Shown here: positions 38,896-55,594 of the stretch, one piece after another
Position numbering within the stretch: the stretch's first letter is position 1
Layout of the letters: each line of letters begins with the position of its first letter
Assembly: GCA_011033025.1 (NCBI GenBank)
Contig: WFMF01000615.1
Location: 1-64,000 of the forward strand
DNA: 64,000 nucleotides
From: Beroe forskalii
Taxonomy: Eukaryota; Ctenophora; Nuda; Beroida; Beroidae
Direction: 5' to 3'
Made by a program: the position numbers and the translations under genes
The notes under the pieces: generated by a model
What the model saw: the letters and a program-made list of their open reading frames with translations, nothing else
Databases searched by the model: none
What the model was told of the DNA's origin: nothing

Positions 38896-41800
38896 ATGGG
38901 CGTTTTGAGGCCATTCTACGTGGACTCTCCCTCAACCTGGGATGACCAGGATGATGGGTTGGATTTCCCCACGGACCCTGACCAAAGAGTAGACAAGTTA
39001 CCGCAGCCCTTCAGACTCGTTGACAAGATCCTTAACTCAATATTTGACGATGCCTGGACAGAGATTACAGCAAGACAAGCTGTCAAAGCAGAGCAAGCAA
39101 GCTACCGAACACTTCCTTGTGTGAGAAATTTTGAACTGAAACCTTTAATCTAAATCATGTTATAACAACGACGAATTCTATCCAATTCTTTAGAACCTTC
39201 TTAAAAAGATCTTGAATTTTACATTTCCTGTGATTCTTTATTCAGTCTTCAAAGCGCAACAGAAAATATCAGGTTATATTATTCAATGAACAATTGCCCC
39301 TCAGCTAGAAGGCCGACAGAGCGTCACACTCCCGTACAAAGTGTACCAGCTCTGCAGCACGCCAGACCACGACATGGTGATTGCAGCAGGAGAGGGAGGG
39401 CTCCTTGCCTTCTCCCCTGATGACGTCACCAGACCTGTTTTCAAGTACAACATTGAGGGGTGAGTTGCATTACATGCGCTTTACCAATCTACATTCTTAT
39501 TAAATTCGATTTCCCCTTATGGATCGTGCGAAGTTATCCATTTATCCATATTCAGTATTCGTTGACTTTTCTAATGACATTGAGATTGTTATCTAATCTC
39601 ATTGAGAAGTTAAAAGAGGTACACACATTTTGATACATTTTGAAGGGTTTAGCAGGGATTGCTGTGATGTCCACGTACTCCATATCCTCGTTCACAGCTC
39701 CAGTCGAGTAAGGAGTTGCTGTTTCGAGGTGTGTAACCCGGATCGGACCAGGTGGTTTATCCGGGTTTGGGCAAGGAATTCTCCCAGGGCTATCTTGAAT
39801 GCCTCTAGCTCCTTATTAAAATTAAAGGTTTCCCTAACATTAAAAGTTTCAGTTCCTCCAATCAGCTGGGAATGATTGTTCTGGGAATTAGCTATCGATC
39901 AATAAATCAATTGGGCGTAGCCAAATTTCTTATTGTTATTAAATCAGGCCGTTAACTGCGCACAGAGTTCCATGGGGTTCAACTGACGTCGAGTTTCCAT
40001 TTGTATTTGTTTCCTTTCCCAACCCCAGATGTTAATCTATTTGTCTTTGTTTCCCTTTCCTAATTGTTATTGCATCGGATTTCTATCACTGAGCACCACA
40101 ATTGAGCGAATATTAACTCATAAGTCATACTGTAACTGCGTAATAATACTATAACCAAGACTTAGTGACACTGCTATTAAATAGGTCAATGTGTAACAAG
40201 TAACAACGTATCGGCAAAACTGGCTGAAGACGATCAGCACATGCTATTTGAAAGCTACCAACTAACCAACCTCGTGTCAATTATAGTCTCAACAACCCCC
40301 ACCACAGTGGCAGTGCCCCCTCAGGAAGGCCCTCAGACCACCTCACCTCGACAAACTCTTGAACTCTTGAAGTCTTGAACACATTCTTCCGTGTACACCT
40401 GAGACGATAAAAAGAATTAAATACATTATCATAAGGAATTCTGGAAATGTCGGAAACTTACGGCGGGTACCCATAAAGGCTTTGAAACAAAACATAATTA
40501 TCAGTATAATAAATAATGGAAAATCTTACCACACGTACAGTGTACCCAATACTTTGTGGACTCATGCAACTGCACAATACTATGTTACGAAGAGTTTTTC
40601 GTGAAATTTGTGTCTGAATTCTTCCATAGACCTAGATAGCTCCAAATACATAATAATTGAAATACTGTACCTACAGTCCATGGATCTTGTACACATAAAT
40701 CGAGAATCCCACTTTTGGATTTACCAAAAACCTGGTTCAATCTCATCAAATTACCCATTGATTTGGGTTAGATGGTGCTTATTAAGTTATTACTATATCA
40801 TTCTCGTAAATTTAACTTGTATGTTCGTTATGTTGCAATATGATTAAGCATTGCTGGTAACTAAGCTACAAATTCATAACAATTATAAGAAAGAATGGTT
40901 TATATTAGACTGAAAGCTTGGTTCAACATGTAGCTACTATAGAAGTATAGAATAATTTTGCCTCTCGGTCAATTGGCGCCAAACAGACCACTGATTGAAA
41001 CTCTTTCCACAGCTCCCTCTGTAGCTCGCCCATATTCAATTTTCTTTGAATTGCTTTACAGTCGTTTAAACTTGACAAATCAATCAAATTCTTTTAAAAC
41101 TTTGTAACTGTTTATCAATTGAATCTCTTAGCTGCTATTGTTTTAATCGAAAACTTTGCTACTAACTAATTAGATTCTTTGTTACTGTAGCTTGCCCAGA
41201 TTCAATTTGCTGCATTGCTTTACAGACGTTCAAGCTTTACAAATCAATCAAATTCTTTTAAAGCTTTGTCACTGCTAATTAATTGAATCTCTTAGCTGCT
41301 ATTGTTTTAACCGAAGACTTTCTGACTTTGCTACTAATTAATTATATTCTTTGTTATCCTTCATTTTAATCAGAACTATGCTTCTAATTAATTTTATTCT
41401 TTGTTTTTGCAGTAATTGTAGTTAATTATCCGACCTGGTGTCGCCTGTTGACAATGTTTGGTTTCACTCACTGGTCAATTACTCCCATATAGCTAGATAA
41501 TAGCCAAGCACACAAATCGTCTCAATATGATTGTTAAGAGGGCTTAAAGGGTTACATATAAATTGAAGCAATCACTTCAACATCATTTGTATACCTAGTT
41601 CACCAAGTTGATGCAATTTGTGAAATTCTCAGTGAGCGATGGTCGATGAGAGTTTTTAGCGTTAAGTCGTTAAAATCCACCGTTTGGGATCGTTCACATA
41701 TTACGTAATCATATAGGGGGTGGGGTGTTTTAAGCTGATTATGGGAGGAGGCCCACATCCAGAAACACCGCAAGTCTGCGAGTCTGACTTGGAGGAAATT

Positions 41801-44800
41801 GATCTTGAGAGGAAATTTTTGGCCGTTTTAGAGGATTTTTTGTAGGTATGTAAATGTTAATTTTTGAATATGAAGGCAGAGGAAATTTTCGTATTTTTAA
41901 TAAGGGGTGGGGGGTCTTCGGGGTGTCGATGGCCAAAATTGTTAGAGGAGCACCGTATCTAAGTATCTACCAGAAAAACTTTCAAAAAACTTTCAAAATC
42001 TTGTTCCTAGCCTGAGTTATGCGATTTTAAAAATCGGAATTTGCCTTTAATTAAGTAATTACAGTACGCGTGCAAACTTCAATCGCGATTTGCCGAAAAT
42101 GATCTTAAAAATCTATCTCCTCCTACATTTTTTGGAGAATCGTCCTGAAACCGAAAAAAAACGTAAAATTTTGGCTCCTTGGAAATTCAAAATCGAATAT
42201 TTTCGGTTCTGAGGCCTAAAATCCGTTGGACAAATCTCTTCATTTTAATCCCTAGAACATATCTGGAAAGTTTCAGGACGATTCTCCAAAAAATGTAGGA
42301 GGAGATAGATTTTTAAGATCATCTTCGGCAAATCGCGAGTGAAGTTTGTGTTCCACCCCAAAATAAAAAGTTTCCGCTCGTACTGTAATAATACAGGCAA
42401 ATTCCGATTTTCAAAAAAAATAACTCATGTTAGGATCAAGATTTTTTCATCCCGTAAAGTTTCTCTGGTAGCTACGATGCTCCTCTATCAAATTTGGCCA
42501 TCAAAACTCCGGTTTTGGCGTGCTACTGGCACGATAACGGCGTGAGGTAGGCCTGATACTGGCGCGATACTGGCGTGATACTGGCCTAGACGGATCGCTC
42601 GATTTACCTATTCTCCTCAAGAGAGGGGGTTGGGCTTTGATTACTTTTGATTACGAGGGGTAGGGAGGGGGTTGAAAATGACCAAAAAATGATTACGTGA
42701 TATGTGAACAATCCCTTACAGCCTTAATCGGTTAATGAGTTAATGATAGTCTGAACCTGACTATTCAAAAATCAATAAGGTCGTCTTCCGCCAGCGGCCA
42801 GCTACCTTTCCAGTTTTGTGCTCATTTATTGTTTTATTGGATCGTAGCATCATTCGAAATGTTTTCGTATTTACTTTCCAGTAGGAATACCTTCGTTCCT
42901 ATTGGGTTTCACAATTTTGGGTTTCACAATTAAAATGTTGGCCGTTGGGGGCCAAGTTCTTTTTAATTTAAGTCCTATGGGCAACTCTTCAAGAATCAAA
43001 CCAGAAACAATTCCCTTTGCATATTTAAACTTTTAAATGTCTAGAACTAACAGACCCGTGATAATATCCTTCAACAAGAGAACCTGACCACACATTGCCA
43101 ACAGTTTATACATATGCACTCAATATAGTTATACTAATCAATCTACTATTTCATAGGTGTCCAAAGTCTGAACGTCGTGAACCTATTGGAAGATGCGCCC
43201 GGGTTCGAAGATTTGGACGTTCTTCGTGTTGATATCACTGGCTCATGTGGTCTCAGCAACGGATTGTAATGGAGACGATGAATATTCCTTGCCTTGCAAT
43301 CGAGATGCTGATCCATGGAAACCTACCAGGACCAAAATGGATTCCCTCAGTAGCCAAGTTAACCCCCCGACCTTCAACGTGTGGACAAGGGCAAAATATG
43401 GAAAGGAGAAGGTGGAAACGATCGTTGAAACACCAGAAAAGCTGTCTAAGGCTGCCAAAGCTACAGCAGAAGCAGCTAGGAAGAAAACGAAGGAGGCTGC
43501 TGCTAAAGCAACAGAAACTATCGAGAAAGTTGCGGAGCAGGCTAAAGGGGCTAAGAAATGGATACAAAAAGCATCAAAGATGTTGAGTGTGTTGTCAGCT
43601 GCGGCTCAATTCGCCGGACCAATAATAGACATAATTCTACTCTTCGCACCTCTGTCAAAATCTTCTGAATTAACAGCAATTGAGTCTGGGTTCGCAAAGG
43701 TGAATGCACAGATAAAAGATGTATCATATAAGTTGGAAAAGATCCAAGACGCGCTGGAATGGAATGCAGTTGTGGGAATTCTGATTACATTCGAAGGAGC
43801 TGTTGATCACGGAACAGAAAAGTATGAAGCACTTGTGGATGAGATTGAGGCCATGGACCCAGATCAGGAGTTGACAGATGACATTAAAAATCAGATTGAA
43901 GATCTTGTCAACACGATCAGAGACACTGGAAACATTGGCAACAAGTTGCAAACTATAAAGACCATCTGGAATGGAGAGTCAGGATACACCAATGGAAAAA
44001 CTCTTCTGGAGACTTTCGTTCTTGCGTCGGACAACGACTGTAGTAAAATCCTGCCTATGGCCAACAAGCTCATGAAGTCTGTGAAAGATGGTCAACGTTT
44101 GCAGTACTTCTACGAAATTAACCAGCAGTTAACTACAGCTGATAATGACAAAGGGTATCCAAAGGACTTATATGACATGTATACAGACACCATGGCAGCA
44201 TACACAACATGCACCAAAAATGCTCCGACTTATGCTCAGAAGCAGATGAAAATAGAGCATGGTGCAGGCAAAGATCTGCTTGATATCATCGATGAAATGA
44301 CAGACAAATACGATCTCTACAACTGGGCAGCAATGAAAGAGTTTACGAAGAAAAAGGGTTACTTTGCCATGATAGACAACTGTGGCAGTCAACAGGAGGT
44401 GGAGCTTACAGGACTATCAGATGATGACAAGAAGAAGCAACGACTCATACTATATGGCGTGAAGAAGTCCAGTGTTACAGAGGTACAGGATGCCGCTGCA
44501 CGAGCCACCACTGTCCTCGCAGATTTGGTACAAGCTGATTTACCAGTGATAGATACCGATGAATACTGGGGTAAGTCAGAAGCTTTTCGACTAGGGATAT
44601 TAAAAGAAGTAAGGGACCTTCTCAAAAGGGATAGCGTCCTGAAATCCTTGATTGAATCCAATAGATTGACTCTAGTTATGTTTGAAAAGGCCACCCAGAT
44701 TAATTTACATGGATGGCATTTCAAAAGCAACATGGAAGTTGTGAAGCGAAGCAAAGATGGTGATAATAATATATATCTAACACACCCTGAATTCACTCTG

Positions 44801-47800
44801 GGCTTTATGTTTACCTTCAAAGAAGACAGCAGTAACTTCGCTTGTACCAATGGTCACAGAATAGACATGTCCTTTGAAGAGAGCCATCCCCATTGTGTCT
44901 GTAAGATGGGTTTTGGAGATTCTGCTTGTGACATGTCTCTTAAGGATGATACGAGGGCATCGCTCAGCAATGATGTTATTGACTTGATACAGCTTTACAG
45001 AGTGCCAGGAATGTTCGATCTGAAGAAAGATATCCAAAAAGGAACAGATACTGTCATGACAGAGTTAGAAAATAATAAAAGGGAAATTTTCAATGAGATG
45101 CGGAAAACTGGGCAGGACATGGAAAAAACTAAGAATGCTATTCTATCCGCTCAGTCTGTAATGCTCAATGACATTAAAGCAGGGAATGCTAAGGTTTTGA
45201 AAGAAGTTGCTGGGCTAAAAGAGGCAATGGATGCTGCTTTTGAGAGAGAACGTAATGACCGCATCTACCAGACTGACAAGGGAAACAAAATAGTGGTTAC
45301 AACGATCAAGGAATCGAACAGGAAAGTAACAGACGACATCAACCGATTGACAGGTAAAGTTATTGAGAACCGGTATTTCAAGGAGCTGAAGTTGCACATT
45401 CCAGTGTTCCAGGAGAAATGGGAGAAAGCTATTGACTATGGAGGGTATGCTGAGCAGGACTTTAACGAGTACATGCTGCGACACGAACAGGACTTTCAAA
45501 CATCCAAGGTCGCAGCAAAGAAAGGAGTTACCGAATCAACAGACTCCTTCGTCACTGCTCAGATGCAGATCAACATGGTGTCTGGGTGCACTGCTGACTA
45601 CACTCAAATGATTGATAATACCTGGACAGAGATGTTTGAGCTTAATCTTGCAGTTTCTTCAATGGAAATGTGGGATTTGGACTATCAAATAAAAACCAGT
45701 GACGATCCAGAGAAAATTAAGTTCTTTAGGCATGAACAGGAAGTACTGAAGGAAAAGTCCAAGGCCGACTCAGTGGAGCTTAAAAAAGTTTATGAGGAAA
45801 GAAATTGTCCGGCATTTTCTCTGGCAAGCGTGGTAGGAGGAGGATGTAGGAAAGCAACGTCGTACCCCGGTCAAACCATTCCAATTAGTTGTTCAGATAG
45901 TGACAAGACACTTGTCCTTGCATCAACAGGAAAAGCTGTCTCTGACTTGCTGTGTGAAAGTGCGGGGGCCTGGGCAGTGGATGTTAAAGATTTCGCCTGT
46001 GTCTCCAAATGTGAAACTGATGACGTCTACTTTGATATTGGAGATACAAGACAGGTCCCTGATGCCCCGAATGGTTACAAGTTTGTAGACCTGGATGGCA
46101 ACGTGGCTACCCAGACTACTTGTCTAGGACCTAAGGAACCAGGCTGGAACATACCGACTGTCTGGGTGGAAGTGGTTCGAGGAACTCCAAGTGAATTCTA
46201 TGAGACTAAAGCTTCTTTGGAAATTAAAACCAAAAGTGCCCGTGGAAGTGGGGACATAGTCCACTTTGATCTTAAAACTGAAACACTGCAGCCAGCCGGT
46301 GGGGTGTCATTGCATTTCAATGACCCCATAGAATATGAGTTATCAAGCTGCACAGGAAGCAAGGTCCCAATGAGCAACGTTCCAGCTGGCAATGAACTAG
46401 TGTGGACGATAACCCGACAGAGAACTCCCCTGAATACTATCAAAATAGAGTGCAATGGAGTGGAAGTTGCTGCCTTTGACATAGGAGGGGGATGTGTAGC
46501 TTCAGACCATGCAATGTATGGGAATACTGTTGCCAGGGTGGAATTCCAGGCTGATGATAATGCTTCGGTTTCTTTCAGACAAAAGAGAATTTCTGAAAAC
46601 TGTGTAGAAGACGGAGACCCCAAGGGAGCGCAATACCGGGGCACCACAGCCGTTACCAAATCAGGTAGACAATGCCAGATGTGGGATTCACAGTTCCCGA
46701 ATGTGAACACACATTTCCGAGAATCAGATTACCCTGGGGTATTGACAGAGAACTACTGCAGGAACGCACTCCCCTCTAGTGATGATGTGTACCTGTGGTG
46801 CTACAACAACGAAGAAACCGTGCCCCGATGGGAATGGTGCACCAATGTGCCAATGTGCTCCGCTTCCAACGAGGAGAAGTTGCGAGCACAGTGGAGTCTG
46901 GTAGTTAGACAAGACATAGACGAGTGTGCAACAGCTGGGTTCTGTAGGTTCGGAGGAACCTGCACCAACACAGAGGGCTCCTTTACCTGCAGCTGCGCCT
47001 CAGGGTACGAAGTGGGGGCTGATGGGAGGTGTGAGGATGTGAACGAGTGTGCGGCAGATGCAGTAGGCTACAAGAAGTGTCTGGTACGGGATAGTCTGGG
47101 GATGTGTACTAACACTCCCGGCAGTTACACCTGCAGCTGCTTGTCTGGGTCCTGGACACGGACAGTCGGCGGCCAGGAGTGTCTGGCGTGTGACAAATGT
47201 GCTGATGACGGTGTGAAGAACACCGTGTGTGAAGGCAACACAGGCAAGTGTCTGTGTAAAGACAACGTGGTGGGGGATAGGTGCGATGCTTGCAGGGCCG
47301 GTATTGCCACCTATCCTGTGTGTGCCAGGTGTGCTGACGGCTACTCCAACTACCCCCAGTGCACGCAGTGTGACTGTGCTGCTGCCGGGGTCACTTCCTC
47401 CAAGTGTGATAAGAAGACAGGGAGATGTCTGTGTAAACCTAACGTGGCTGGAACTAAGTGTGATTCGTGCAAGAAGTACTACATTAACTACCCCTCTTGT
47501 GTTGCGGATGTGAAGCATGGTACACTGAGTGAGTGGGGAGCCTGGTCGAGCTGGACTGACAAGGGCGAGTGTGGGCCCAGCGACGCTACAGGATACACAC
47601 AGGAGAGGACGAGGTCGAGGACCTGTGATGACTCCACTAAAAACATACACGGTACCAGCTGCAAGTCAGCACCGACGAAGGATGTGGAATCGAAGTTCAA
47701 CGCAGTGTGTTCCCAGATAGATCAGCTGTACCTCAACCTGCCGAACTTATACTATGCAGGGACGACTGCCTTCCTCTGGATGAGCATCAGACAGGGATCT

Positions 47801-50800
47801 AACGAGTGTAAAACTTCAAAGCCTACATGGAGGGCACCTTGTCATGGACCGGGCACCTCATGTGGAACCTACTACGAGGATCCCTCTGGGTGCCCTAAAA
47901 CATTCGACAAAACCAGGCCAGTCGATCTTTGGCTGCACTCTGACTCCAATAACAATGTCTTCATCGCATACATGGGAGCGAAAATTGGAGGTGTTTACAA
48001 AACCTGGGATGCTCCTGGCAAATTTAAGAGCATTGATCATGACACAAATAATGGTTGGTGGTCGACAGCTACGTAGAAGTGGAATCTGAGGACTGAGATT
48101 TGACACCAAACAGAACAATATTTCAAAGTGAATGTTAATTATAGTAGTATAATGTAATAATCAAATAGACGAGGGAAACAGTTACACCTTTTTTGGATTT
48201 TTAATGGGAGACAGTAATTTATCACCCTTCCCAAGAAGACATTTTGAAAAAAGAGCAATTAAATTTGATATTTTTTCTAAGCAACATCCCCCTAGAATGT
48301 GAAACACCTAATTATGTCTGCTGCCACACGATTTTTTCCGTGGGCAGCGCAAGCTCATCTCAGGAAGGTCCTAAGACATGAGACCAACGATTTTCTGGGG
48401 TAGCATCCTACGTGTAGTGGGGGTAGAGCACCTCAGAAGCGCCCTGAAGCACTTCAATGTTTTTGTTGTTCACTATTAAAGGAATTTATCACCGGTGCAA
48501 CTAATCAACTATGTGAGACATTGAGGCATCTAAGCATTGAATTTTAATGACATGAATCTTTTGCTTCCATCATCATGGAACACCAACATCACCATAATAT
48601 CTGGAAAAAGCAAATTTTTTTATTGCCTTAAATAGCTAACAAGTGTTTTAGGGCGTTTCCTAGGTGTTCTACCCCCACTGAGCGTAGGATGCTCCCCCAG
48701 GAAATCCCTGTCTCACGTCTCTAGAACCTTTCTGAGTTGATTTGCTTAAACGGCGCCCTCAGGAATAAAAAAGGTGCGGTGGCAGGCTTAGAAATTGAGC
48801 AATTGATCCGTAATTTTAAACTCGTGATTTTTTCATGGAACCTCATAGTTTAGTCACAATTGAAACTTTTTTGAATATACGAGGGCTGGTGGATCAACCT
48901 AACTGGGTGACAAGAATTACGGCCCTCCGTCTATTTGATACTGATAATTTACTTGAATTTCAATATTTTACATTTTTGACAAACTATTTTGACCAATGTC
49001 TAAGTCAAGATTCTATTCTCTTCATAATAATACTGTAGTGGTAATTAATACGGCTTGGATTTCAAGAGTTGTTTTTGGACCACAAAATTTTAATGGGTTA
49101 GGGTCTAGGGATCGTTCACAGATGTGATATAATTCTTATTAATCAGGCGGTGGGAGGGGGTTAGATCATCTGGTAGCAACTGTCCTGAAATGGAACCGCG
49201 GCAGAAGGGCGTTGCGAAGTGAATTCAGAATTGGCGCAAGGGGAGGATTGTTCCCAAATTTAATGTCAATTAATTTAATGTCAATTTAATGTCAATTAAT
49301 TTAATGTCAAATTTAATGTCAATTACAATCAATGAACACTGAAATAGGGAGTACTGCTCCCTCACTCAACACAGAAATAAGTAACACGTGTAAGTGAAGC
49401 ACTCCAAACAACACTTCCTCACCAAGTGGCAATTGCCAATGAGTTCTTTGGGAAGTGGTGTTTATAGTCAGTAGCGTATCAATGACCATTGACCCATGTG
49501 GCTGAGTCTGCCTTATCATAGGCTATCGAGGCTCAGTGTCCTCAAATGTGATAGTATAAAGTAGTGTTATAAAAGTATCAAGTTTAGATACAAGAAAAAG
49601 AGATAATGGCAATTTCAGGGGTTATTTGAAAGCTGTGGTCACCAATGGAGCTGAGTCAGGGACATATATCATTGCTGCTCTTGATCCCGAAGGTTTGATT
49701 AATGCTCGTTTGTTCATTTCGTGAAGCATCTAGTACAGTAGATAGTTTATCATACCATGAGCTCGGAAGAGATATGTCTGTGCATTGCCACTAAACTTTT
49801 GTCAAACAACTTTATACCAAAGTATCAATTTTCTTCCCTGCAAACAGTTTTCGTTGACACCACTTTTTTTATGACATTCCTTTTCCTTGCACTATTTCCG
49901 AGTGACACCATTTTCATCAGTTTTCATGATTTAATTTCAGGAATGGTAACAATTATTGCTGTTACAAGAGCGGGCTTCATCGAAGTTTCAAAACTAATGA
50001 TTGAGGTGATTTTTATATCCTTGTTACAGACTTACAGTTACACTTATTTCTTTAGTGATTTGAAAATAAGTTTGGTATTAATTCCTTAATTAATCATTTG
50101 GAAATAAGTTTGGTATTCATTCCTTAATTAATCATTTGAAAATAAGTTTGGGATTTCTTCCTTAATTAATCGTCCATTTCACTTGTTCTGCAGAATGAAG
50201 AAAAAGTTTTAAATGTTTGGCTCGAAGACTCAAACCTTGTGCTCTCCATTGCTGGTAAGATTATCTTAACTAGTCTTATCAAGAAATTAGGGATAAATAT
50301 TGCTCCCAAGTCAGTTCCTTGCAAAGAAAGTCGTTGGGAGTTTTTTTACTTAACATCTGAGTTCTAAGTATCTGAGGTTTTAACTTTTCTTTCAGAAAAT
50401 TATCGAAATGGTAGACTGAACGTTGTTGCAATTATAATGCCTTGAGCCGCAAACGACATGCGCATGAGTAATGTGTACTCTTTCAGCGTCTTGTGTGATA
50501 TCGCGCGCCGCATAAATTGCGCGCTAATTTGATGAAAAAGATACCCAGTTTTCCCCGAAAAAACAACAAAACAAATCCCAATGTTAAGCAGCATCCTCAG
50601 GAGAAAGGAGCATCGTCCACCTCTCGTTCTACTCACTCCCCCTCGCCGCTTGGACTGAACCACTCGAACAAATCAGCTCCCAACGTCTCCAAGGCAACGA
50701 CGAAGAGGAACAGATGTTTGCTAAGCCAGACACTAAAACTAAAGTCAAGTGCCCGGGAGCCGTGATGCCGTGCCCCAAGAACAACTTGGGAGAGGCACTG

Positions 50801-53800
50801 GGACCCATAATGGGGACCATCGAGAGACCTGTGAACCTGGGACAAGGGTTGTACCATATGTTACCTGCTAGTTACTTCGAGAAGAGGAGAGAGATTTTGG
50901 AGAAACTGCCAAAATATCAAGGGATAGACTGGGACAATGCGGATACTAGGTACATTTTGCGTTATAAGGTTACTTTTCATTTTCATACACTGCGTCAATT
51001 CAGCACAAGTTCATGAATTCTTCTGGACAATCCAGATAAACTAATTGAATGACTCGATCTTGCTTGATCAGCTTTGAAGATATTGATGTTTATCAAAAAA
51101 GCAAAAAGCTGAAACTGCTTGTTTCCAGTGTCAATGTGGGTCACGTAGTATTTCTCTCCAACGACAGAGTACTGGTTTGGTGGACTGAACATCACATCGC
51201 CACTCTACATTCAATGCAAGGTATTTACTAGAAGGTAACAACTATTAGACACTAGTTTTCTTATTTACTCAAATCATGGGAATTTCTTAGTTTCAAAGAT
51301 TCAATTACCCAGTTTAGGGAACCTTGAATCTTCCCAATCTTTGCAGATATGGACACAGTTCTGGACAGTTTTGTTTTCTGTTCTGACATCACCTGTGTAG
51401 CCGCTAACCAGACTAGAAATAAGATCGCTGTTGGTCTGCAGAGGGGCCTGTGTTCTGTCATCGATCTCGAGGTATCTTATCTACATTTATATACATTTGT
51501 GTTACAACTCATCAATTTTGAAGAATAAATAAGTATGGAAATTTGGAACCTATTATTCCCTAATTTTAAACCCCTTTTCCTTTCCCAGGAGGGGCTATCA
51601 GTCCAGTGTTCCCTGGTCTCCAGATCGCCTGTTTGTCACCTGGAGTTCGTGGAGAATAAACTACTCGCTGCTACCAAGGTACTTAGTTGTACTTGATTGT
51701 ACCATAGCGACTGCCTTGCCCGTGGTACATTCGTAGTCCTCGAACTCTTGAACACCAAATGATTCATTTACTTGCTAATCTACTTCATATTAACAATCCC
51801 AATCTACCACAGTTACCACACTGAATCTACCACACCTAAGTTACCACACATCCCCGCAGGACGACAAGGTGGCACTCCATCTACCACACCTAAGTTACCA
51901 CACATCCCCACAGGACGGCAAGGTGGCAGTGTTGAGCGGGGATGAAGAGTGTAGCTGTGCCATGATACAACACATAGCAAGCTACGATGCCAAAGACGCA
52001 GCTGTGGCACAGATCAACAGACTTATCCCTTACTCCAACCTTGCAGGTATTGCAGGCTGAGAACATGACCATTTGTATTTTGTTATAGAGACAAATGAAT
52101 CTTATGCCATGATTGGGCTGTGAGATTTTTATGCGTTCGGACCAGAATTTGTAGCAATGATGAACTATTGAAACACCCTGCTCAGTGCCCATTTCCGTAT
52201 GCTGAGTGAATGACCCTATGTTGTATGTGTTCCCCTGTTTCAGTTGTTACGCTGACCCCGGGCAAAGTGGCTGTTGTGGACGTGGACAGCTTCAGAGCTA
52301 CCGCTGTTATACCAGTGTGGAACACTGCCACGCCCAGTGAGTTTGAATATTGCACTGGCAACCTGCCTACCCCTAATGCAAGACGTCTTTATCTAGTGTT
52401 TGCATTAAAATTTCATTTGAAAAAAATTCAGTAAAAGTAAAAATACGAATGTAAAATGCACATGTAATTCTAATTATTTTCTTACAATCTCCTACTGTTG
52501 ATCACTCCACGGCTTCCCAAGGAGAAGGTTCCCCATTGCTCACTTCCTCAAACAACCCAGCCCAACCTCTCCACCTTCCACCGATCTTTATTTTCACCTC
52601 GTCAAAGAACGCACTGTTTCTGCACTTCTCGGATAAAACCCGAATTTGGATGGGTTTCCGGTAATCAGGGTTAAATTTTGTGTCTGCACACGTTCCAAAC
52701 TTTTCCCTGTCCGTCAGTACGTAGTGGTATCCTCTTTTAGGGTCCACAACCAGGTCAATTTCCGTTTCACAGCTGGTGTGAGAGCCTTGCCTGACTCCGA
52801 TTCTAAGATTTCCTTTTGTTCCCGCGACACTTTCATCTGACATAGTGATGGCAAACCCTCTGATCAGTACTCCGTCCGGAATGTCTGAAACGAACGTCTT
52901 TCTCCAATCACTCGGTCTGTTCTTCTCCACGAGCACTTCTTTGTCTTCCCAGTTCCTCCATTCTCCCGCTATCTTTACCTCCACTTTGTCAACGAAAGCA
53001 TCGTTTCTGGATGTTGAAAGTACCCTGACTTTTATTGGCACCTGACTCCATGGGACGAATGCTTTGCTAGGACACGATCCAAATAACGACTTATCATCCA
53101 CTTCGTACACCTTGGCACTCTCAGGCTCCTTCACTGTGTCCTCTGCAGTCTCGCACTGTGTGGACCCTTGCCTCACCCCAAACCGGAGACTCCCCTTGGT
53201 CTCAGCGATGGGAAGGTCCGACATTCGTACCCTGAAACCCTGGATCCGGTTCGGTCGCAACGCACCCACATTAACTCCCAGCAGATCGTCATCCTGGGGT
53301 TCTTGAGCACTAGTTAGAGTTAAAATGGATGCTAGTAGGAGGTAACTTGCTCCAAAAGTCTTCATGGCTCTGTTGACTTCCCGTGCGAGACTTTCTTGAA
53401 ACAAAATGAAATGATTTGGATTTTGGAAATGCAACTTTACCACCTTAATAAAAACCTTGGAGGTTTAATTGAAAATTGATTAACTTTCGGCTTTCGTACC
53501 TGCCCTTGTTAGTTATCACTTAGTGATAAGATATTTAGTGAGGAAATTATTGAAGCCACGGAAGCTCATTTTACTAAACGCCCACGTCTCTGTGAGTGAA
53601 TAGTTGCCTCCGACTCCTTTAGGAGGTATTTACCAACTTAATGAAATTCCAATTTATTATCTCAGCTGATATAAATTCATTGAAGTGGAACCTACCAACT
53701 CAATGTAATTTATAGGGCGAGGTTTTAATATGAAATATAAGCGCTGAGGTAAATATTCCTTATTTTATTTTTTTAAACACCAAAAGAGCATAAGTTAATA

Positions 53801-55594
53801 CTAATCAAATGTGGTATGGCTTGTTGTAAAATCCTCATTATACCTTTACTGTATAGTAGCTTTGTCTGCCATGGATTGGTTAAAATGTGAATAAGTTGAT
53901 AAAATGTAAATAAGTTAAAATGTGAATAAGTGGGAACATGGAACTGAAATTTTGTCTCGCTGCTATAGCTTAATAGCTCATAGCAGACCCTTCGTCCTTG
54001 CCCTACTGTGCTCATTGTGTAACCCTCTACTCCTGTCCTCATTTTTTCCAACTCTTATTCCCTCCCAACTTTCCTCCGTCCTTAAATGCAGCCCTATCAC
54101 CTTGCCCCGTCCTCTCCACCCCTCCTCTCCGCCCCCTCCCCTCTTGCCCCCTGCTGTCCTATCCCTCCCCTCTTGCCCCCTGCTGTCCTATCCCTCCTCT
54201 CTTGCCCCCTGCTGTCCTATCCCTCCTCACCACCCCTCCTGCCATATCCCTCCTCTCCACCCACTCCTGTCCTATCCCTCCTCTCCCCCACTCCTGTCAT
54301 ATCCCTCCTCTCCCCCACTCCTGTCATATCCCTCCTCTCCACCCACTCCTGTCCTATCCCTCCTCTCCAACCCCTCCTGTCCTATCCCTCCTCTCCAACC
54401 CCTCCTGTCATATCCCTCCTCTCCACCCACTCCTGTCCTATCCCTCCTCTCCAACCCCTCCTGTCATATCCCTCCTCTCCACCCACTCCTGTCCTATCCC
54501 TCCTCTCCAACCCCTCCTGTCCTATCCCTCCTCTCCACCCCTCCTGTCCTATCCCTCCTCTCTTGCCCCCTGCTTTCCTATGCCTCCTCTAGTCCTCTCC
54601 ACCCACTCTTGTCCTATCCCTCCCCTCTTGCCCCCTGCTGTCCTATCCCTCTCCTCTTGCCCCCTCCTGTCCTATCCCTCCTCACCACCCCTCCTGCCCT
54701 ATCCCTCCTCACCACCCCTCCTGCCCTATCCCTCCTCTCCAACCCCTCCTGGCTCCTGTCCTATCCCTCCTGTCCACCCCTCCTGCCCTATCACTCCTCT
54801 CCCAAACCCGCCTCCCTAGCTTTTTACCCTCCCTTCTCTCTCTCCTCCTCATCTTTGCTTCCACCTTTTCAGAGTGTGCTAGTCTGACTAAGAGATATCT
54901 GTGTCTGATAGCAGAGAACTACCGGGAGCTAATGACTCGATTAGAAGCTATTCACCACTTTGCTCCCCTCTACACCAACTCTCCGCCGAATACTGCGGAA
55001 CAGGTTTGTCTCACTTCAACTTAACATGTTTTGAGACTTGAGTGCGAATACTGACGTCTTAAGTTATGCTGTGTCTTGAGAAGCTTTGAGAAGCTTGTAT
55101 CTTTGATTTCGAGATAGTTTATCATAACTTTTGTCACATGCCCATTCCCCTCCTTACCCCTGCTCTCCTGAATTCAGTGTTTTACACTTTTACAGGCCGA
55201 AGGACCCTGTCAAATGTATGTTGTTGACATCGGAAATAACCCCGAAGTTTCTGACAAGGGTTATGTCAATACAGCTGAGTCAAAAGCTCCCTCTCTGGCT
55301 ACATTATCATTCAACTACTTCACAAAGGTAGGCTAATGGTTTTTATAACTATGTTGTGTTTTTCTATGATTACAGATATTTTGGACTAACACTAACAGTT
55401 ATCAATCTGCAACTCTAAAAATAGGAAAATCCATAATTTCTGGTATAAAACAAGATTTTCTCCTTTTTTCTCCTTTGCTTGTTAATCTTTATCTAAGGGT
55501 TACACCATACTTCAGGGATGCAGATAAGAGGAGTCGTCATCAGCGTCTCAGGGAACGTTGGTTCCAATACACAGAGGAGCTAGAAGCTTACTGA
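38896..55594 (+). CDS. WDR93: WD repeat-containing protein 93
   Basis: Exons: 38896-39120, 39305-39459, 49619-49692, 49941-50005, 50194-50254, a possible 15-nt micro-exon 50397-50411, 50601-50949, 51072-51220, 51347-51471, 51589-51678, 51914-52046, 52244-52336, 54873-55003, 55196-55327 and about 55516-55594. Phase is kept except at the last junction, where the acceptor is unsure. About 620 aa (human 686). The N-terminal signature LPQPFRLVDKILNSIFDDAW matches WDR93. After it come beta-propeller-like blades (MVTIIAVTRAGFIEVSKL, IAVGLQRGLCSVIDLE, KVAVLSGD, KVAVVDVDSF) and a charged C-terminus. WDR93 is testis- and cilia-associated; its mechanism is not settled. Intron 2 (10.2 kb) and intron 12 (2.5 kb) each hold a nested secreted-protein gene. 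Confidence 0.8.
41012..41420. repeat. ~165-bp tandem repeat, about 2.4 copies
   Basis: GCTTTACAG...AAATCAATCAAATTCTTTTAAA...GAATCTCTTAGCTGCTATTG recurs with about 90% visual identity. A third partial copy ends with the ATTCTTTGTT block. Confidence 0.7.
41686..42715. mobile_element. 1.03-kb TIR element containing a ~540-bp palindrome
   Basis: The ends GGGATCGTTCACATATTACG and (complement) GGGATTGTTCACATATCACG form 25-bp inverted repeats. Inside, arms at about 41947-42195 and 42225-42485 are inverted copies, including AAAAATCTATCTCCTCCTAC and GGAGAATCGTCCTGAAAC-type blocks. A short GATACTGGCGT array lies at 42545-42590. No coding frame. A relic of the same end (GGATCGTTCACAGATGTGAT) is at about 49110. 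Confidence 0.7.
43193..48076 (+). CDS. Secreted cephalotoxin-like multidomain protein, nested in WDR93
   Basis: One uninterrupted exon, 1627 aa. Signal peptide 1-22. A Lys/Ala/Glu-rich amphipathic helix (about 70-125) precedes a hydrophobic segment (about 130-153) and long helices (to about 540), an arrangement resembling SE-cephalotoxin-like proteins. Then: an EGF-like turn (551-580), helices, a sushi-like stretch (about 872-939), a beta-rich region, a kringle domain (1137-1221), two EGF modules, the first with the calcium-binding DIDEC motif (1241-1330), laminin-EGF-like modules (1335-1436), a thrombospondin-1-like segment (SEWGAWSSW, about 1443-1506) and a C-terminal domain (1507-1620) also found twice in the small gene at 52502-53365. 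Likely extracellular. Toxicity is not shown; many animals carry such proteins with unknown roles. The family name rests on architecture recalled from memory. Confidence 0.7.
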   Translation: MRPGSKIWTFFVLISLAHVVSATDCNGDDEYSLPCNRDADPWKPTRTKMDSLSSQVNPPTFNVWTRAKYGKEKVETIVETPEKLSKAAKATAEAARKKTKEAAAKATETIEKVAEQAKGAKKWIQKASKMLSVLSAAAQFAGPIIDIILLFAPLSKSSELTAIESGFAKVNAQIKDVSYKLEKIQDALEWNAVVGILITFEGAVDHGTEKYEALVDEIEAMDPDQELTDDIKNQIEDLVNTIRDTGNIGNKLQTIKTIWNGESGYTNGKTLLETFVLASDNDCSKILPMANKLMKSVKDGQRLQYFYEINQQLTTADNDKGYPKDLYDMYTDTMAAYTTCTKNAPTYAQKQMKIEHGAGKDLLDIIDEMTDKYDLYNWAAMKEFTKKKGYFAMIDNCGSQQEVELTGLSDDDKKKQRLILYGVKKSSVTEVQDAAARATTVLADLVQADLPVIDTDEYWGKSEAFRLGILKEVRDLLKRDSVLKSLIESNRLTLVMFEKATQINLHGWHFKSNMEVVKRSKDGDNNIYLTHPEFTLGFMFTFKEDSSNFACTNGHRIDMSFEESHPHCVCKMGFGDSACDMSLKDDTRASLSNDVIDLIQLYRVPGMFDLKKDIQKGTDTVMTELENNKREIFNEMRKTGQDMEKTKNAILSAQSVMLNDIKAGNAKVLKEVAGLKEAMDAAFERERNDRIYQTDKGNKIVVTTIKESNRKVTDDINRLTGKVIENRYFKELKLHIPVFQEKWEKAIDYGGYAEQDFNEYMLRHEQDFQTSKVAAKKGVTESTDSFVTAQMQINMVSGCTADYTQMIDNTWTEMFELNLAVSSMEMWDLDYQIKTSDDPEKIKFFRHEQEVLKEKSKADSVELKKVYEERNCPAFSLASVVGGGCRKATSYPGQTIPISCSDSDKTLVLASTGKAVSDLLCESAGAWAVDVKDFACVSKCETDDVYFDIGDTRQVPDAPNGYKFVDLDGNVATQTTCLGPKEPGWNIPTVWVEVVRGTPSEFYETKASLEIKTKSARGSGDIVHFDLKTETLQPAGGVSLHFNDPIEYELSSCTGSKVPMSNVPAGNELVWTITRQRTPLNTIKIECNGVEVAAFDIGGGCVASDHAMYGNTVARVEFQADDNASVSFRQKRISENCVEDGDPKGAQYRGTTAVTKSGRQCQMWDSQFPNVNTHFRESDYPGVLTENYCRNALPSSDDVYLWCYNNEETVPRWEWCTNVPMCSASNEEKLRAQWSLVVRQDIDECATAGFCRFGGTCTNTEGSFTCSCASGYEVGADGRCEDVNECAADAVGYKKCLVRDSLGMCTNTPGSYTCSCLSGSWTRTVGGQECLACDKCADDGVKNTVCEGNTGKCLCKDNVVGDRCDACRAGIATYPVCARCADGYSNYPQCTQCDCAAAGVTSSKCDKKTGRCLCKPNVAGTKCDSCKKYYINYPSCVADVKHGTLSEWGAWSSWTDKGECGPSDATGYTQERTRSRTCDDSTKNIHGTSCKSAPTKDVESKFNAVCSQIDQLYLNLPNLYYAGTTAFLWMSIRQGSNECKTSKPTWRAPCHGPGTSCGTYYEDPSGCPKTFDKTRPVDLWLHSDSNNNVFIAYMGAKIGGVYKTWDAPGKFKSIDHDTNNGWWSTAT
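48316..48790. mobile_element. Fold-back MITE with ~130-bp inverted arms
   Basis: Arms at about 48316-48446 and 48655-48790 share GCATCCTACG, GTGGGGGTAGA and the outer CTGCCAC...TTTTTT blocks in inverted order. Lies in WDR93 intron 2, just after the nested gene. No coding frame. Confidence 0.65.
49259..49325. repeat. Short tandem repeat TTAATGTCAA
   Basis: Six units of TTAATGTCAA/TTAATGTCAATTAA in WDR93 intron 2. Confidence 0.8.
50050..50168. repeat. 46-bp tandem repeat, ~2.5 copies
   Basis: GAAATAAGTTTGGTATT...CCTTAATTAATCATTTG repeats two and a half times in WDR93 intron 4. Confidence 0.8.
51806..51913 (+). repeat. 54-bp duplication of a WDR93 splice acceptor
   Basis: CTACCACACCTAAGTTACCACACATCCCCGCAG|GACGACAAG-type sequence is followed 54 bp later by a second copy ending CCACAG|GACGGCAAG. 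Both have an AG acceptor, at 51859 and 51913. Use of the upstream one would add 54 nt, 18 in-frame codons without a stop. Confidence 0.75.
52502..53365 (-). CDS. Small secreted protein with two PLAT-like repeats, nested in WDR93
   Basis: One exon, 287 aa. The start at 53365 is preferred over the upstream ATG at 53443 because it yields a clean signal peptide (MKTFGASYLLLASILTLTSA). Two ~100-residue repeats (41-139 and 168-269) share TKGxLRxGVRQGS, a Cys pair, KPIQIRVLS and FFDEVKIKIGGRW. The spacing of the GxxTKG start and the FxDxVxxKI end resembles PLAT/LH2-type beta sandwiches, a structural guess. Four conserved Cys suggest disulfides. The same domain closes the large nested protein at 43193-48076 (IRQGSNECKT ... 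YMGAKIGG). It is antisense to WDR93, within intron 12. Function unknown. Confidence 0.8.
   Translation of the reverse strand: MKTFGASYLLLASILTLTSAQEPQDDDLLGVNVGALRPNRIQGFRVRMSDLPIAETKGSLRFGVRQGSTQCETAEDTVKEPESAKVYEVDDKSLFGSCPSKAFVPWSQVPIKVRVLSTSRNDAFVDKVEVKIAGEWRNWEDKEVLVEKNRPSDWRKTFVSDIPDGVLIRGFAITMSDESVAGTKGNLRIGVRQGSHTSCETEIDLVVDPKRGYHYVLTDREKFGTCADTKFNPDYRKPIQIRVLSEKCRNSAFFDEVKIKIGGRWRGWAGLFEEVSNGEPSPWEAVE
54090..54810. repeat. Pyrimidine-rich minisatellite, ~28-bp unit
   Basis: Units of CCTATCCCTCCTCTCCACCC and ACTCCTGT repeat for about 700 bp, with nearly no purine runs on the plus strand. It ends about 60 bp before the WDR93 exon 13 acceptor, so it acts as a very long upstream pyrimidine tract. 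Ser/Pro/Leu-rich open frames in three phases are artefacts. Confidence 0.9.

Follow-up and report, generated by a model that had tools for sequence, protein, structure and literature searches.

How did two genes for apparently secreted proteins, nested in different introns of a single host gene, come to share a domain? The question is raised by a 64,000-nucleotide stretch of the ctenophore Beroe forskalii genome (contig WFMF01000615.1; hereafter, the window), in which a large cephalotoxin-like gene and a small gene on the opposite strand both lie inside a WDR93/FAP297-like gene. An earlier note on this DNA had claimed that the terminal domain of the large gene occurs twice in the small one, and had read this as a local duplication between introns of the host or, alternatively, as a capture that made a new gene. 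The elements concerned are the following:

38896..55594, + strand: WDR93/FAP297-like host gene, from in-frame exon joins with fitting splice borders, a PDB match and a stop codon
43193..48076, + strand: large intronless gene, 1627 residues, apparently secreted and multidomain, from its open frame, Pfam matches and a 63% identical relative, P0004
46622..46858, + strand: Kringle domain of the large protein, residues 1144–1222 (Pfam PF00051, E 3e-14)
47717..48073, + strand: C-terminal copy of the shared domain in the large protein, residues 1509–1627, from sequence comparison
52502..53365, − strand: small intronless gene, 287 residues, apparently secreted, with two copies of the domain, from its open frame and the relative P0003
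52895..53257, − strand: domain copy D1, residues 37–157, from sequence comparison
52514..52879, − strand: domain copy D2, residues 163–284, from sequence comparison and a predicted structure

The explanation that, taken as a whole, we consider probable is one of separate origins. The shared domain would be an ancient PLAT-like β-sandwich module, usually located at the 3′ end of its gene, that has spread over at least three kinds of protein: large cephalotoxin-like, MACPF perforin-like and stand-alone two-domain secreted proteins. The large gene, intronless and most likely an old retrogene, would belong to a multi-exon family in which the module was already present. The copies in the small gene would be nearer to the MACPF-linked version, with D1 and D2 derived from an old internal duplication shared with P0003, and we infer that both genes entered WDR93 independently. 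Docking would be the role of the module. Computation shows the homology of the copies, their distribution, the tree and the fold of D2; retroposition, independent insertion and membrane docking are inferences.

The similarity of the domain between both nested genes is far beyond chance. In single-pair blastp comparisons, the C-terminal domain of the large protein (P0001) is 28% identical to D1 (expectation value, E, 1e-9) and 25% identical to D2 (E 7e-5). A profile built from nine copies, small and MACPF-linked, recognizes the large-gene domain with an E of 7e-10, against a best of 2.5 among 10,000 shuffles; the reverse profile search recovers D1 at 8e-9 and D2 at 6e-7 (best shuffle 0.23), and a profile–profile comparison with hhalign, run as a single comparison, returns 98.1% with an E of 1e-13. 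The domain ends the large protein and occurs twice in the small one, and alignment of the three copies yields significant similarity, the opposite of the outcome that the earlier note had named as contrary to its claim. The sequence marks given there hold in part. RQGS is present, but the single residue before the following cysteine is not, as two or three residues intervene (RQGS-NE-C, RQGS-TQ-C, RQGS-HTS-C), and the KIGG near the end fails in D1, which has KIAG. Eleven alignment columns are invariant in all ten copies; two of them are cysteines, assumed here to form a disulfide. D2, the sole copy modeled confidently, has the predicted fold of a PLAT β-sandwich, with a predicted local distance difference test score (pLDDT) of 86. 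We term the domain PLAT-like and do not file it as PLAT because none of the ten copies matches any Pfam model; this includes the C-terminal domain of the large protein and both copies in the small one, which as a whole has no Pfam match and no match among PDB sequences. Searched against PDB sequences, the domain profile gave two matches, the better with an E of 0.31.

Within its own genome, the small protein (P0002) has ten further matches (11 with itself) and the large-gene domain four (five with itself). By tblastn, nine of the ten loci L002–L011 show similarity to a MACPF exon that is upstream of the domain and shares its strand, the exception being L010; L008 overlaps L011, and the MACPF exon of L003 is frame-broken. 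All four MACPF exons scanned with PF01823 score 22.1–27.0 bits (curated cut-off 21.5), those at L005 and L007–L011 were compared by tblastn only, and the exon of L002, on contig C414, was also recovered in a family search of the genome. The module thus sits behind MACPF exons, i.e. in the C-terminal position of MACPF genes. Neither P0001 nor P0002 matches PF01823 at an E of up to 1. A domain profile search of a large protein collection, which admits only proteins of similar length and is uninformative on MACPF fusions elsewhere, gave 17 matches; all five that entered the 25-row tree belong to the large-gene type, as the rest seem to by eye. Separately, a 1043-residue open frame at G000:C470:116301-118790 matches MACPF at three separate places one after another and represents an unusual tandem perforin-like protein.

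Within this genome, the copies nearest to those of the small gene lie on other contigs. D1 is 33–42% identical to the MACPF-linked copies there and 28% to the large-gene copy; D2 is 32–48% identical to the former and 25% to the latter. Trees built from 17, 25 and 22 copies split the large-gene type from the small and MACPF-linked type with support of 99/97, 100/100 and 100/100. L010 (two frames) was dropped from the trees, L011 has no row of its own (it overlaps L008), C172 has none (no domain found), 12 of the 17 proteins from the collection search were left out of the 25-row tree, and one tree was run without L005, C197 and C537. Seven groupings that unite the window's copies were all rejected by approximately unbiased (AU) tests, with p values of 2e-8 in the 17-copy tree, 3e-67 in the 25-copy tree, 5.6e-5, 4e-7, 4e-4 and 5e-3 as the sets were enlarged step by step, and 1.4e-5 once the long rows were removed. 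An eighth grouping sets the MACPF-linked copies apart from the small gene and all of the large-gene family. The analysis neither establishes nor rejects this grouping (57/28); it would put the origin of the small gene before the spread of the large-gene family, a very old split with no copy made inside WDR93.

The small protein consists of D1 and D2 in tandem and almost nothing else. Its relative P0003, also of 287 residues, is 47% identical and has the same two-domain layout, and is absent from the small protein's matches in its own genome. Between the two proteins, D1 is 52% identical to D1 and D2 54% identical to D2, compared with 47% for D1 and D2. In the first tree, D1 pairs with the D1 of P0003 and D2 with its D2 (88/88 and 89/87); therefore, the internal duplication predates the split from P0003. 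Two short proteins from other sources, P0013 and P0020, represent yet another small layout: a signal-like start and a TSP1-like part (by eye) precede a single copy of the domain.

The large protein contains calcium-binding EGF (EGF_CA) and laminin-type EGF repeats by Pfam, and a TSP1-like stretch recognized by eye. Its relative P0004, which bears a precomputed PF27742 annotation, is 63% identical over 98% of the length; the large gene is therefore old. As previously noted, both nested genes are intronless, each a single uninterrupted open frame, and each begins with a hydrophobic, signal-like stretch as judged by eye. The large protein's paralogs, in contrast, are multi-exon: C316 (two readable genes plus a third rich in stop codons), C172, C197 and C537. 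They have in common a phase-0 intron near residue 350, read in four and inferred from a break in the match in the fifth, which the window's gene lacks, and they are further split at EGF, TSP and domain borders. Paralogs on C316 (two, the assignment being from order and strand), C197, C537 and C284 have the shared domain at their 3′ end, in two pieces in the last three; near C172, it was not found in 304001-324000. The third paralog on C316 (G000:C316:178160-180052), with its many stop codons, is apparently a pseudogene. The large gene is best read as a retrogene because it is intronless while the other readable family members share an intron, i.e. it is an intronless copy of a multi-exon family.

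A further copy, on C396, is 89% identical to the large gene over 1282 bases, and the ratio of non-synonymous to synonymous change (dN/dS) between it and the window is 0.46 over 351 codons; the large protein is therefore under some constraint. Silent divergence between G000:C396:62409-63461 and window positions 47003-48073 is uneven, 0.15 in the EGF/TSP part (235 codons) and 0.50 in the C-terminal domain (116 codons), as from gene conversion or a mosaic copy. A truncated retrocopy was considered for C396 and set aside. Its upstream side resembles poor assembly, and part of the flank downstream of it has a counterpart in the window (72.5% over 142 bases), which makes C396 a duplicated locus whose quality is uncertain. 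Two other observations concern the large gene. Just upstream lies a palindromic element (41686-42715), foldback or MITE-like (miniature inverted-repeat transposable element), with nested inverted repeats whose 27-nucleotide ends are 93% and inner 79-nucleotide arms 97% complementary. The Kringle–EGF part of the protein (residues ~1120–1260) is matched by open frames of 450–787 residues on C588, C255, C180, C580 and C207; no Kringle was matched in the fetched stretches of the multi-exon paralogs, and a chimeric origin of this part is possible.

Against separate origins stands the proposal that the 3′ end of the large gene was copied into another WDR93 intron to give the small gene. The common host, the common domain and the uninterrupted state of both genes would all follow from it, and, among the small and MACPF-linked copies, it is D1 that scores highest with the large-gene copy in blastp (42.0 bits, followed by L003 with 35.0). 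However, both D1 and D2 are more identical to MACPF-linked copies, and every AU test that unites the window's copies was rejected under the model used, which leaves local duplication, as first proposed for this locus, very improbable. As far as their domain copies are concerned, the two genes belong to different lineages, a result named at the outset as contrary to local duplication, and the alternative of capture survives in the broad sense only that the small gene is almost nothing but domain. Thus, the closeness of two genes in one host is no evidence of local duplication.

Separate origins are themselves not free of difficulty, and the following points weigh against parts of that explanation. 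The single-sequence model of the whole small protein is poor and uninformative (pLDDT 44.5), and no Pfam family, PLAT included, matches any of the ten domain copies at an E of up to 10. In the 25-row tree, the copies of C197 and C537, which are partial rows with a long branch, group with the MACPF side, and the large-gene family is therefore not of a single module type there; in the trees of 17, 25 and 22 copies, the four small rows form one group with support of only 84/81, 58/63 and 77/69. Only the first AU grouping was named before any tree was viewed, the trees are unrooted and so give neither the direction in which the module spread nor its first type of carrier, and P0003 may, strictly speaking, be a paralog that this assembly lacks. 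As for retroposition, no poly(A) remnant was seen in the flanks of the large gene and no direct repeat of at least 12 bases brackets it (shorter ones would be missed), so it is the missing introns that speak for it; an old retrocopy would have lost both its poly(A) and its target-site duplication. The absence of such scars, together with the age of the gene, would also suit an ancestral intronless large gene whose paralogs gained introns. We consider this unlikely, as the paralogs share the phase-0 intron and are split at further borders, and retroposition, which removes every intron in a single step, requires fewer events.

MACPF proteins are often brought to the target membrane by a β-structured C-terminal domain, according to a review (PMC5483515). 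Because the module holds the place of these membrane-binding domains in MACPF genes, it probably docks on membranes: it would anchor its protein on a lipid or glycan surface, most likely lipid, and the small protein, with no effector of its own, would dock bivalently, acting as a bridge or a decoy. Alternatively, the domain may be a lectin-like or protein-binding module, in which case the small protein would serve outside the cell as a scaffold or an inhibitor. Proteins are also among the ligands of PLAT-type sandwiches, colipase at pancreatic lipase being an example, and the Kringle and EGF parts of the large protein are of types that typically bind proteins. This is a possible reading that we hold in some doubt, as the position straight behind MACPF exons fits the membrane-binding C-terminal domains of that superfamily. 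Beyond docking as such, one may speculate, with still less confidence, that the mobile 3′-end module is the common address label of a secreted defense or venom arsenal, with the two-domain protein as a bridge or self-protecting decoy and two such genes lodged independently in the introns of one ciliary gene. If so, MACPF pore formers and the giant cephalotoxin-like and two-domain proteins would meet on the same target surface, and a decoy would compete there, shielding self membranes.

The structure of the host gene was read from the following exons:

38896-39120, 39305-39459, 49619-49692, 49941-50005 and 50194-50254, + strand: first exons, in one frame with fitting splice borders
52244..52336, + strand: exon upstream of the small gene, read from the sequence, with a GT donor directly after it and an agreeing frame
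54873..55003, + strand: exon downstream of the small gene, read from the sequence, with an agreeing frame
55592-55594, + strand: stop codon, in the same frame as the joined exons

Two PDB sequences match the host, FAP297 being the best with an E of 0.0036 over 44 residues, a weak match, followed by Ika8 (E 0.023). FAP297, which we take to be the algal counterpart of WDR93, agrees with the earlier WDR93 call and gives the host a modestly supported identity. Since the first five exons join in one frame, the large gene sits in intron 2, on the host's strand, as previously assigned. A WDR93 exon overlapping the start of the large gene (~43158), protein-like in an alternative frame, was set aside: as read, it is out of frame with the exon that ends at 39459 and is not followed by a good donor, whereas 49619-49692 joins in frame. 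The small gene lies on the opposite strand between the exons ending at ~52336 and starting at ~54873, in an intron that is number 11 in the present model and was formerly counted as 12; the number depends on the exon count between 50254 and 51080. The same intron contains a 28-base minisatellite of ~24 copies (54110-54802), and a 54-base tandem duplication (51825-51928) lies at a host exon edge near the splice acceptor.

The PLAT fold, MACPF proteins and nested retrogenes are all of known kinds. For one domain shared by large cephalotoxin-like, MACPF and two-domain proteins, we found no precedent in a full-text search of 5.39 million papers, where no paper paired cephalotoxin or MACPF with 'PLAT domain', the wordings to which the search was confined. 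One domain without a model in the Pfam copy used links three kinds of secreted or pore-forming animal proteins, and the C-terminal end of cephalotoxin-like proteins gains a testable function. PLAT-type domains occur in lipoxygenases and as the C-terminal domains of pancreatic lipases and clostridial alpha-toxin; the shared domain resembles them in the predicted fold of D2, and differs in its lack of any Pfam match and in its two invariant cysteines. Compared with perforin-like proteins bearing a β-structured C-terminal domain, the small gene, whose closest genomic copies follow MACPF exons, has no MACPF part and encodes two docking-type domains only. The large protein, cephalotoxin-like by the earlier sequence-only assignment, would match SE-cephalotoxin-like proteins in being large and secreted with EGF/TSP-type parts and differs in its Kringle domain. 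A venom role is not to be assumed, because SE-cephalotoxin is described as being of unknown function in a paper on nemertean toxins (PMC4986456) and a cephalotoxin-like protein is listed among the matrix proteins in a paper on coral skeletons (PMC4043741). Lastly, like other intronic nested retrogenes, the large gene is a single-exon member of a multi-exon family within a host intron; it differs in showing neither poly(A) nor duplication scars, and in sharing its host with a second nested gene that carries a related domain.
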